DNA of 32,129 bases from Acidobacteriota bacterium (GTDB taxonomy: Bacteria > Acidobacteriota > Terriglobia > Terriglobales > Acidobacteriaceae). The notes under the pieces are model-generated. The model was not told the origin of the DNA. It worked only from the letters and a program-made list of their open reading frames with translations, and did not search any database. Where the stretch lies: positions 1 through 32,129 of the forward strand of contig JAJZIJ010000030.1 in the NCBI GenBank assembly GCA_021810625.1, in the 5' to 3' direction. Shown in pieces: positions 3,246 through 20,014 of the stretch. Within the stretch, counting starts at the first letter, position 1, and each line of letters begins with the position of its first letter. Made by a program: the position numbers and the translations under genes.

Positions 3246-3284
3246 AAAAATGAGCGATAGAGATGTCATCTATCGCTCATTTTT
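3246..3284 (+). terminator. recA terminator hairpin made of the GAGCGATA repeat
   Basis: A near-perfect inverted repeat: arms 3246-3261 and 3269-3284 pair over 16 bp (A-run, TGAGCGATAGA / TCTATCGCTCA, T-run) around a 7-nt loop. Ending in TTTTT and lying 20 bp after the recA stop, it has the form of a rho-independent terminator. Its stem carries the same TGAGCGATA word as the next palindrome, over the fic start, so it may serve as both terminator and protein-binding site. Confidence 0.8.
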
Positions 3285-7600: not shown

Positions 7601-8668
7601 ATGAGCGTTCGCAAGATCGTCCATATCGATATGGACGCATTTTATGCTTCCGTCGAACAGCGAGATGATCCGCAACTGCGCGGCAAGCCAGTCATTGTCG
7701 CCTGGCGGGGCAATCGTTCGGTCGTCTGTGCTGCTTCGTATGAAGCCCGGCGCTTCGGCGTGCGCTCGGCCATGCCTGCGACACGCGCAGAGAGGCTGTG
7801 CCCGGATGCGATCTTCGTGCCTCCAGATTTTTCGCGCTACCGAGCCGTTTCGCGCAGCGTGCGAGAGATATTCCAACAGCACACAGATTTAGTCGAGCCG
7901 CTGTCGCTGGACGAGGCGTATCTCGACGTGACCGAGAACAAGACTGGCTTGCCGACCGCAACGCGCGTGGCCCGCGCCATTCGCCAGCAGATTCGCGAGG
8001 AGTTGCATCTGACCGCTTCGGCAGGCGTCGCGCCCAATAAATTTCTGGCGAAGATTGCCTCGGACTGGCGCAAGCCCGACGGACTTTTTGTCATCCAGCC
8101 TGAAGAGGTGGATACATTTCTGCCGCCCCTGCCCGTGGAGCGTTTACCTGGTGTCGGCAACGTGACAGCAGGGAAGCTGGAGAAGCTGGGCATCCAGACG
8201 GTCGAGAACTTGCTCGCTTTGGACATGCCCACACTCGAAAGCCACTTTGGGCGTTATGGTTTTCGCCTATATGAACTTGCTCGCGGCATCGACAACAACG
8301 CAGTCATCCAAAACCGACCGACGCAGTCGATCTCCGCCGAGGACACATTTGAGCGCGACATGCTGCTGGCAGAAATGGAGCCGATAATTCGCAATCTGGC
8401 AGAAAAGGTTTGGGCGGCCTCGCGCAAGGAATCGCGGATCGCCCGCACCGTGGTGCTGAAGCTGAAGACGGATGCCTTCAAGATGCTTACGCGGAGCCAT
8501 TCGCCCAGCTTGCCACCTGCGTCGAGCGAGGAATTGACCAGCATCGCGCTCCTGCTGCGCGAGCGAGTTGGCCTCGGTTCCCAGCAGCGCTTTCGCCTGG
8601 TTGGTGTTGGCTTGAGTAACTTTCGTGAGCCTGAAGATATTCCTGCACAGTCGGCTCTTTTCGAGTAG
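7601..8668 (+). CDS. dinB: DNA polymerase IV (Y-family)
   Basis: Translesion DNA polymerase of 355 residues. The palm starts HIDMDAFYASVE with metal-binding Asp10; the second acidic pair is LSLDEAYLDV (Asp104, Glu105). Tyr15 occupies the steric-gate position, by comparison with Phe13 of the E. coli enzyme. Further family motifs are SAGVAPNKFLAKIASDWRKP and the helix-hairpin-helix LPGVGNVTAGKLEKLGI. The protein ends QSALFE, a QxxLF-type sliding-clamp motif. Length is normal. It is divergent from the TPR gene. No ribosome binding site is visible; translation may be leaderless. I see no LexA box, so damage control cannot be inferred from the sequence. Confidence 0.96.
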   Translation: MSVRKIVHIDMDAFYASVEQRDDPQLRGKPVIVAWRGNRSVVCAASYEARRFGVRSAMPATRAERLCPDAIFVPPDFSRYRAVSRSVREIFQQHTDLVEPLSLDEAYLDVTENKTGLPTATRVARAIRQQIREELHLTASAGVAPNKFLAKIASDWRKPDGLFVIQPEEVDTFLPPLPVERLPGVGNVTAGKLEKLGIQTVENLLALDMPTLESHFGRYGFRLYELARGIDNNAVIQNRPTQSISAEDTFERDMLLAEMEPIIRNLAEKVWAASRKESRIARTVVLKLKTDAFKMLTRSHSPSLPPASSEELTSIALLLRERVGLGSQQRFRLVGVGLSNFREPEDIPAQSALFE

Positions 8669-9274
8669 CGCTTGATTGGGTCATCAAGGTTGATTCCCTG
8701 TGGACATAACCATTCGGAAAAGGCTCCCCGCGACCAGACCTGGAACCGTTTTTGGAATCGTTGCGCGCCTGCGGCAGCAGATCGGGCGCGTTGCACATCA
8801 ACTCCATTTCACCCGCGATGACGATCTCCGCATTGCCGGATTGAATGGCCCGCGCCCCCATCGCGCCGGGCGGCGGCGCGAAAAATTCTTCCAAGGAACC
8901 AAAAAATTTTCTACCGGGGTTTGAGCTGCGGAAACGATCCCGACCTCGCCCATGCAGGCGCCTCCATGCGTTTCAGGGTAACGAAAAAAATATACGGCGC
9001 AGCGACACTCCTGCCCTGGACGAAGGGAACAATGTCAAAACATATTTTTCATTCAATGCTTTATCCCCTTATTCCATGCATGTTTTCGCTGCATCCCTAC
9101 ATTCGACACCCGTGGACTTGCAGGCATTCCCGCCGCGTGTTGCGCGTAATTTTCTCGTGGATTTTCCTGCGAATGGAGACTCGTTGCAGCGTTGGATCGG
9201 ATGTATCGACAGAAAAAATCGCAACGTGAGAACATGAGCGTCAAAAAAAATATGCAAAAAACATCATTTTTTTC
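8669..9274. other. Gene-poor decayed region between dinB and the lysine-rich peptide gene
   Basis: About 600 bp without a convincing gene. After dinB there is a small hairpin without a T-run (CTTGAT 8671-8676 / ATCAAG 8683-8688), then a thiolase scrap at 8763-8857. From about 8930 to 9270 the sequence turns AT-richer with several A-runs and no recognisable coding or RNA signature. It leads into the strong promoter at 9275. Confidence 0.5.
8763..8857 (-). pseudogene. Fragment of an acetyl-CoA acetyltransferase (thiolase) gene
   Basis: Read on the minus strand, about 32 codons give ARAIQSGNAEIVIAGEME and then LMCNAPDLLPQAR. This closely follows the thiolase core segment AxxAIxSGDAEIVxAGGMExMSxAPyLLPxAR, recalled from the family. 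The glycine before ME has become Glu. Nothing thiolase-like can be read in frame before or after, so it is a relic. It lies 95 bp beyond dinB on the opposite strand. Confidence 0.6.
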
Positions 9275-9303
9275 TTGACATTGATTTTTTGTGAATCTAT
9301 ACC
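9275..9303 (+). promoter_or_regulatory. Strong sigma-70-type promoter of the lysine-rich peptide gene
   Basis: A consensus -35 TTGACA (9275-9280) and a -10 TATACC (9298-9303) are separated by exactly 17 bp, inside a T-rich stretch. A start near 9310 would give a leader of roughly 58 nt before the ATG at 9368. Confidence 0.75.
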
Positions 9304-9367
9304 TTCGTGTAACTGCAATATTTATATTGCAGACTCGATGTCACATCGAAAAGGGAGAATAGACACC

Positions 9368-9439
9368 ATGGCAACCAAGAAAGCAGCCAAGAAGGCACCG
9401 AAAAAGGCAGCCAAGAAAACTGCAAAGAAAAAGAAGTAG
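9368..9439 (+). CDS. 23-residue lysine/alanine-rich peptide, histone H1-like
   Basis: A 24-codon gene too short for ordinary gene callers. It begins MATKKAAKKAPKK and ends in four lysines. The peptide contains 13 Lys, 6 Ala, 2 Thr, 1 Pro and the initiator Met, with repeated KKAAKK and KKAPKK units as in eukaryotic histone H1 tails and bacterial Hc1/AlgP-type tails. A nucleic-acid-binding or nucleoid role is inferred from composition alone. The support for a real gene is unusually good: a consensus promoter at 9275-9303, a Shine-Dalgarno (AGGGAG, about 11 nt upstream of the ATG), and a perfect 18-bp terminator hairpin 15 bp after the stop. It is a single-gene transcription unit. It could be a relic tail of a longer histone-like protein, but the complete signals argue against that. 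Confidence 0.75.
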   Translation: MATKKAAKKAPKKAAKKTAKKKK

Positions 9440-9454
9440 TTCAACCCAACAGGC

Positions 9455-9495
9455 AAAAGATTCGGGGGATGCATAAGCATCCCCCGAATCTTTTT
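9455..9495 (+). terminator. Rho-independent terminator of the lysine-rich peptide gene
   Basis: Perfect 18-bp arms (9455-9472 and 9477-9494), each containing GATTCGGGGGATGC or its complement, around the loop ATAA. The stem is flanked by AAAA and TTTTT, so it could terminate in both directions. It separates the peptide unit from rsmE. Confidence 0.93.
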
Positions 9496-9546
9496 GTGCC
9501 CGATGGATGTCTGCTAGGCTGCAAGAGAGACCTGCACGAGAGAACC

Positions 9547-10293
9547 ATGACACGCCGCCGCTGGATCGCCGACCAATGGGATGAAACCTCCGCCACGCTG
9601 ACGGGCGCGCAAGCCGAACATCTGGCGCGAGTTTTGCGCGCCCGCGTTGGCCAGGAGTTCGATATTGTCGCAGGCGGCGTGGTGCGGCGCGGCACGGTGG
9701 AAGCCATCCATCCAAACACCGTACTCTTCCAACTGTGGGAGGCCATCGAAAGCGCGGCCTCGCTTCCGCTCACCTGCGCGCTGAGTATTTTCAAGTTCGA
9801 CCGCTACGAGTGGGCCATCGAGAAACTGACGGAATTGGGCATCGCCACGATTGTTCCGGTGATTGCGCGGCGAACGGAGAAACATCTGGCCCAGGCAGCC
9901 GAGGCTCGCGTAGAGCGCTGGCGACGCATTGCGCGCGAGGCCGCGCAGCAATCCCGGCGCACGGACGTGCCTGCCATTGCCGATCCGGTCGCGCTGGAGA
10001 AGATGAACCTGCCGACGCAAGGCGCGTGGAACCTGTTGCTCTCCGAAGTGGAAGAGGAAACGACGCTGTGGGCTGCGCTCACAAACAATATGGAAACGCG
10101 CGCTGCGCTTTCCGCCGTTCACATGGCGATTGGCCCGGTGGGGGGATGGACGGAGCCGGAGATGCAGTGGTTCGCCCGGCAGCAATGGCGTCCGGTCAGC
10201 CTGGGGCCGCGCATTTTGCGCGCCGAGACAGCGGCCATTGCCACAGCCAGTATTCTGGCGGCCTGGCTGGAAGAGGCGCATCTGCAATTGTGA
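9547..10293 (+). CDS. rsmE: 16S rRNA (uracil-1498-N3)-methyltransferase RsmE
   Basis: RsmE of 248 residues, which methylates N3 of U1498 in 16S rRNA with S-adenosylmethionine. The N-terminal PUA-like part contains AEHLARVLRARVGQEFDIV. The C-terminal SPOUT domain carries the knot motifs MAIGPVGGWTEPE and LGPRILRAETAAIATASIL. Start at 9547 (MTRRRWIADQW) is chosen because homology begins there; the 26 codons upstream come from the terminator hairpin. The ribosome binding site is weak (GAGAGA). It converges on dnaJ, unlike many genomes where rsmE follows dnaJ or prmA on the same strand. Confidence 0.93.
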   Translation: MTRRRWIADQWDETSATLTGAQAEHLARVLRARVGQEFDIVAGGVVRRGTVEAIHPNTVLFQLWEAIESAASLPLTCALSIFKFDRYEWAIEKLTELGIATIVPVIARRTEKHLAQAAEARVERWRRIAREAAQQSRRTDVPAIADPVALEKMNLPTQGAWNLLLSEVEEETTLWAALTNNMETRAALSAVHMAIGPVGGWTEPEMQWFARQQWRPVSLGPRILRAETAAIATASILAAWLEEAHLQL

Positions 10294-19970: not shown

Positions 19971-20014
19971 AAAAGCCCCACGGCATCGGCGCAATGCGCC
20001 GATGCCGTGGGGCT
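19971..20014 (-). terminator. Rho-independent terminator of the giant repeat-protein gene
   Basis: Perfect 19-bp arms (20014-19996 and 19992-19974 on the minus strand, containing AGCCCCACGGCATCGGCGC) around a 3-nt loop, followed by TTT. It begins 30 bp after the stop codon at 20044. Confidence 0.88.

Follow-up and report, generated by a model that had tools for sequence, protein, structure and literature searches.

What does a locus produce that consists of little more than a promoter, a run of lysine codons and a terminator? We asked this of a short frame in a 32,129-nucleotide contig of an Acidobacteriota bacterium (Terriglobia, Acidobacteriaceae; JAJZIJ010000030.1 in assembly GCA_021810625.1), the whole of which is called the window here. 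An initial annotation had read the locus as a stand-alone gene for a lysine-rich peptide. Our comparison of the window with related genomes points, with a probability of roughly 55%, to a class-wide small-RNA gene that would both encode a polycation resembling a histone H1 tail and have a role at the RNA level.

Anatomy of the unit in the window

On the two strands of the window, the micro-ORF was the sole frame of 15-60 amino acids with at least 40% lysine, and none of 40 dinucleotide shuffles of the window yielded such a frame, which rules out a chance occurrence. Perfect hairpins of at least 14 bp were present at three places, versus none in 10 shuffles; besides the terminator of the unit, they lie at 19974-20014 (19 bp) and 3246-3284 (16 bp). 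The RNA of positions 9311-9495 has a predicted folding energy of -63.6 kcal/mol (z -8.64).

Table 1. Features of the unit and its downstream neighbour, in window coordinates
Feature	Positions	Strand	Basis
Promoter: TTGACA (-35, 9275-9280), 17-nt spacer, TATACC (-10, 9298-9303)	9275-9303	+	Read from window sequence
Leader hairpin 1, CTGCAATA/TATTGCAG	9313-9332	+	Predicted fold; covariation in 49 family sequences
Leader hairpin 2, TCGATG/CATCGA	9335-9349	+	Predicted fold; covariation of outer pairs
AAGGGAGAATAG, ribosome-binding and conserved RNA motif	9351-9362	+	Single copy in genome; near-invariant in 49 aligned sequences
Micro-ORF MATKKAAKKAPKKAAKKTAKKKK, 23 aa	9368-9439	+	Frame kept across class; pN/pS 0.07-0.53
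Short 3' untranslated stretch up to terminator stem	9440-9454	+	Window sequence
AGGCAA motif, starting within 3' untranslated stretch	9451-9456	+	Recurs in family loci
Intrinsic terminator, perfect 18-bp stem (18-nt arms 9455-9472 and 9477-9494, loop 4), U run 9491-9495	9455-9495	+	Fold; hairpin scan
rsmE (16S rRNA methyltransferase), downstream neighbour, outside unit	9547-10293	+	PF04452

These features bear out the initial description of a complete unit, standing alone with its own promoter, ribosome-binding motif, frame and terminator: the Shine-Dalgarno sequence proposed there corresponds to AAGGGAGAATAG, and both arms of the perfect terminator stem could be located. The consensus promoter claimed for the unit held for the TTGACA hexamer and the 17-nt spacer, but the -10 element TATACC is weak, matching the consensus at 4/6 positions and drawing no call from a promoter scanner; most relatives have TATACA as their -10. 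The peptide contains 12 lysines rather than the 13 first counted, and the two 5' leader hairpins had not been described.

Support for the leader hairpins came from covariation in the 49 family sequences, in which 34 cells changed on both sides of a pair compared to 10.7 in shuffles, and 89% of cells were paired compared to 21-42% when the pairing was slid. Hairpin 2, which some relatives lack, mostly fails to pair at its innermost position. We infer that the leader hairpins stabilise the RNA against decay.

The motif AGGGAGAATAG is near-invariant at the unit. Across 20 genomes it was found at 49 sites, one per genome at the unit and 29 elsewhere, the latter a mild excess over the 15 sites of a reversed control. 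Its rarity away from the unit led us to reject it as a widely used ribosome site, and it may in part serve as an ordinary one. In many family loci, whether or not they have the frame, AGGCAA stands ahead of the terminator. Some predicted folds leave the GGGAG/GGCAA stretch open, and others pair part of it.

Distribution across the class and selection on the frame

The initial annotation had suggested looking in related genomes for short lysine/alanine-rich frames followed by a terminator; in our comparison the unit recurs across the class. A DNA search gave matches in 75 of 100 relatives, many of them short or within longer lysine/alanine-rich genes, so that loci were read singly. Three loci without the unit (L024, L025, L030) and one with an unrelated 48-codon H1-like frame (L026) were left out; in the last (G046:C47), the frame follows AAAGGGAGAATAACC and lacks the promoter of the unit. 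Family loci share an order of elements that begins with a T tract and continues with CTTGACA-N17-CTATACATTC (present in most aligned loci), the hairpin TTGCAAC...GTTGCA, often a second hairpin, AAGGGAGAATAGA, the frame and a terminator, most commonly GGGGACGC...GCGTCCCC. The frames are 12-30 amino acids long, and in some loci the whole frame is just MATKKKAKKKKH or MATKKKAKKKKKH.

Comparison across genomes demonstrates that this unit is conserved. A model of upstream DNA only (R1, built from 49 family sequences, each ending before the start codon) had matches in 353 of the 398 genomes of the family, covering 76 of 79 genera, with almost always a single match per genome. Among 299 genomes drawn from the class, 122 were matched, of which 71 belong to the family and 51 do not. 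We read 30 of these 51, picked by score and spread over families, and all 30 loci had a lysine-rich frame of 10-76 amino acids at or right after the R1 match, with peptides such as MKNATKKAAKKKAAPKKKKK, MKCATKKAAKKKPAGKKKGK and MKKAKKKKKR; the frame of 76 residues (L128, G559) has been expanded by repeats. Outside the class, a second model (R2) matched 45 genomes at E 0.1, mostly through its promoter part only, and none of the 10 of these genomes that were read contained the unit. One of the loci read outside the class (L231) had a lysine-rich 13-codon frame starting from an internal ATG, by eye inside a longer gene.

A sample gathered by RsmE homology was independent by method and not by organism, as it shares several assemblies with the genomes read earlier. 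From 334 relatives 80 were kept, and the 75 loci with 250 or more bases upstream were counted: unit and frame were present in 70, another two carry N within the frame, and three are without the unit in the 500 bases scanned, the unit of L243 sitting further upstream. The cultivated strains Silvibacterium bohemicum S15 and Terracidiphilus gabretensis S55 are among those with the unit. In the sister genome, a 6.6-kb contig (L032, G001:C190) bears a further, diverged unit next to an rsmE of its own, which is either a paralogue or contamination.

Frame-bearing loci numbered 143 and comprised 120 distinct sequences, with an overall composition of 55% lysine and 29% alanine; aspartate, glutamate, phenylalanine, tryptophan and isoleucine are absent from all of them, and valine and leucine total 15 and 2 residues, respectively. 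Uncorrected pN/pS ranged from 0.067 (13 sequences of 13 amino acids) to 0.53 (frames of 23 amino acids, where the value is inflated by comparison without gaps). Together, these sequence comparisons show that the lysine frame is under purifying selection. Its stop codon is TAA in 92 distinct frames, TAG in 28 and TGA in none. GCA is the first alanine codon in 116 of 120 frames, compared to 185 of 498 other alanine codons, a bias that may stem from translation initiation or from an RNA motif.

Loci without the lysine frame

In four genera, designated g31, g92, g44 and g43, the lysine frame is gone from every genome read (15, 10, 4 and 1, respectively), and the remainder of the unit is kept: TTGAC and GGGAG are present in 30/30 loci, and a terminator in 28, the two exceptions being one locus at a contig end and one with a weak U run. 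No frame of at least 8 codons opens within 60 nt after GGGAG in 18 of these loci. In the other 12, no frame reaches 20% lysine, and only one stops before the end of the terminator (g31, 11 codons, GTG start). Six of the 15 g31 loci have an ATG 17-21 nt after GGGAG that opens an arginine/glycine-rich frame running through the terminator; these loci and the one with the GTG frame may still make some product. A protein search of the frame-less genomes returned lysine/alanine stretches within longer frames, in a search that missed the known gene in four of five positive-control genomes.

Mapped onto a 52-row RsmE tree, the presence or absence of the frame requires three changes, forced by well supported branches, and because the frame is class-wide we read these changes as losses; g43 lies on a long branch and its placement is unsure. 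At E 2, five g44 genomes and one g43 genome yielded no unit, indicating that the whole unit can also be lost.

The strongest competitor to a dual role, which we nevertheless consider unlikely, is a gene for the peptide only, whose transcript would be the mRNA of a polycation and whose frame-less relatives would be remnants or make another product. Selection on the frame across the class is in keeping with it, as is the pattern of the 3' AGGCAA motif, seen in loci of the family, with none noticed in the f6 loci among those read outside it. Against it, the promoter boxes and GGGAG of g31 and g92 have stayed in place while the promoter spacer between these genera has fallen to 28% identity (-10, 98%; -35, 79%), and in the 10 g92 loci 32 of 33 columns starting at GGGAG are invariant.

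The initial annotation had named, as the finding that would turn the locus into an RNA gene, relatives in which the frame is disrupted while promoter and terminator persist. Such relatives exist in g31, g92, g44 and g43, and there the RNA is what was kept; elsewhere across the class the frame persists. The original peptide-gene reading is thus supported as to a stand-alone unit and a peptide kept class-wide, and unsupported as to a product that is peptide only, given the frame-less genera.

What the unit may encode

In the dual reading that we favour, a sigma-70-type promoter would drive a probably abundant transcript of ~185 nt that ends at a strong terminator and has 5' hairpins expected to shield it from decay. 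Translation from the AGGGAG site, in most lineages and in that of the window, would give a lysine/alanine polycation, mostly of 12-26 residues. The peptide is too simple to fold, and given its composition, which is that of H1 tails, its likeliest activity is electrostatic binding to nucleic acid, polyphosphate or another polyanion, as with the tails of histone H1. Because the frame has been dropped in several lineages that retain the other parts, the transcript would also have a role independent of the frame, presumably carried by the stretch from the leader hairpins to the terminator with its GGGAG and GGCAA motifs. That the window copy is dual rather than peptide-only we infer from other genera, whose putative RNA role is carried over to it. 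In a further step, to which we give slightly less than even odds, the RNA would be the core function and the frame a detachable, protamine-like poly-lysine module, lost several times from a selected RNA.

Some nine in ten of the genomes sampled from a major soil family (353/398) have the locus, which is too short for usual annotation. If made, the peptide would count as one of the smallest polycations conserved in bacteria and would offer a natural model of the H1 tail in minimal form; if the frame is indeed a detachable module, it would, at 10-16 residues in many lineages, rank with the shortest autonomous genes that are conserved. Lineages that kept and lost the frame are natural experiments in which peptide and RNA function can be tested directly in cultivable soil strains.

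Two properties of dual-function RNAs were evident here: the loci read have the anatomy of an independent small unit with promoter and terminator, and the frame is selected to code (pN/pS and absence of acidic residues, above). A study of VcdRP of Vibrio cholerae describes a dual-function small RNA with a 29-amino-acid frame (PMC8672173); the unit resembles it in its predicted small transcript, short frame and separate, here putative, RNA role. It differs in that the peptide is a pure lysine/alanine polycation and that whole genera retain the RNA without the frame. By analogy with VcdRP, the unit may be a dual-function RNA. Peptide-coding bacterial sRNAs, according to PMC5521070, contain frames of 10-50 amino acids under selection to stay coding; the present frame likewise lies within a predicted small RNA and is selected to code, and it departs from them in its odd composition and in the class-wide conservation of one unit.

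A known Rfam, Pfam or NCBIfam member was rejected as an identity for the unit. Window positions 8660-9600 gave seven Rfam matches with E no higher than 1, none of them near the gathering score, and 20 relative loci gave none at E 0.1. Five peptides searched against each of Pfam and NCBIfam produced nothing above cut-off. The likeness to histone tails proposed initially holds for the composition of H1 tails, which the peptides, 10-76 residues long, share with the lysine/alanine-rich HC2 histone H1-like nucleoproteins (PF07382); it does not extend to the HC2 profile, whose cut-off of 40 bits was not reached by the five peptides tried (no match for four of them, and 7.7 bits, chance level, for the 76-residue peptide). 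No publication on the gene was found in searches of an open-access library, and the matched passages of PMC7074687 held nothing on it.

A tiny protein that binds the ribosome or helps to assemble it, instead of a general polycation, is an improbable identity for the peptide. The peptide is basic, very short and apparently strongly expressed, and it adjoins rsmE in part of the family; against this stand the lack of a match to known ribosomal families among the five peptides searched against Pfam and NCBIfam, a range of 10-76 residues in loose sequence that fits a fixed rRNA pocket poorly, and the loss of the peptide in some genera. A pure RNA gene with an incidental frame would explain why the RNA parts outlast the frame, but pN/pS values down to 0.067, 120 distinct sequences without one acidic residue and a frame in all 30 out-of-family loci read make it very improbable.

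Attenuator leader peptides have a short frame rich in one amino acid followed by a terminator, which the unit also has, and rsmE lies downstream and co-directional in the window, as it does in 14 of the 18 family loci linked to rsmE. Comparison of loci shows, however, that the downstream gene changes, and no constant co-directional partner emerges: a helicase-like gene (by eye) is convergent in 24 family loci, rsmE in the other four of its 18, an RmuC-like gene (by eye) in four of five, and among 16 out-of-family loci, whose neighbours differ again, 10 are convergent by eye. No lysine gene was recognised by eye among the neighbours. Since neighbours vary and are often convergent, attenuation was rejected as a general account, and we find it hardly credible. 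Upstream, a thiolase gene precedes the unit in 44 family loci; in the window it has decayed to fragments on the minus strand (8742-8864 and 8903-9043), next to an intact unit.

Least probable of all is a type I toxin or antimicrobial peptide, which the peptide's small size and cationic nature, and the dedicated promoter and terminator, might suggest and which was rejected on composition, as a peptide set without phenylalanine, tryptophan or isoleucine would be expected to form neither a membrane helix nor an amphipathic face, and on its nearly constant single copy per genome.

Two further details concern individual frames. In one locus (L078, G369), codon 4 of the frame is a TAG stop; the sequence is a draft whose promoter spacer contains N. 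Some of the short peptides form a subgroup with a terminal KKH (L021, L031, L034, L036-L038 and other family loci), and no other peptides contain histidine.
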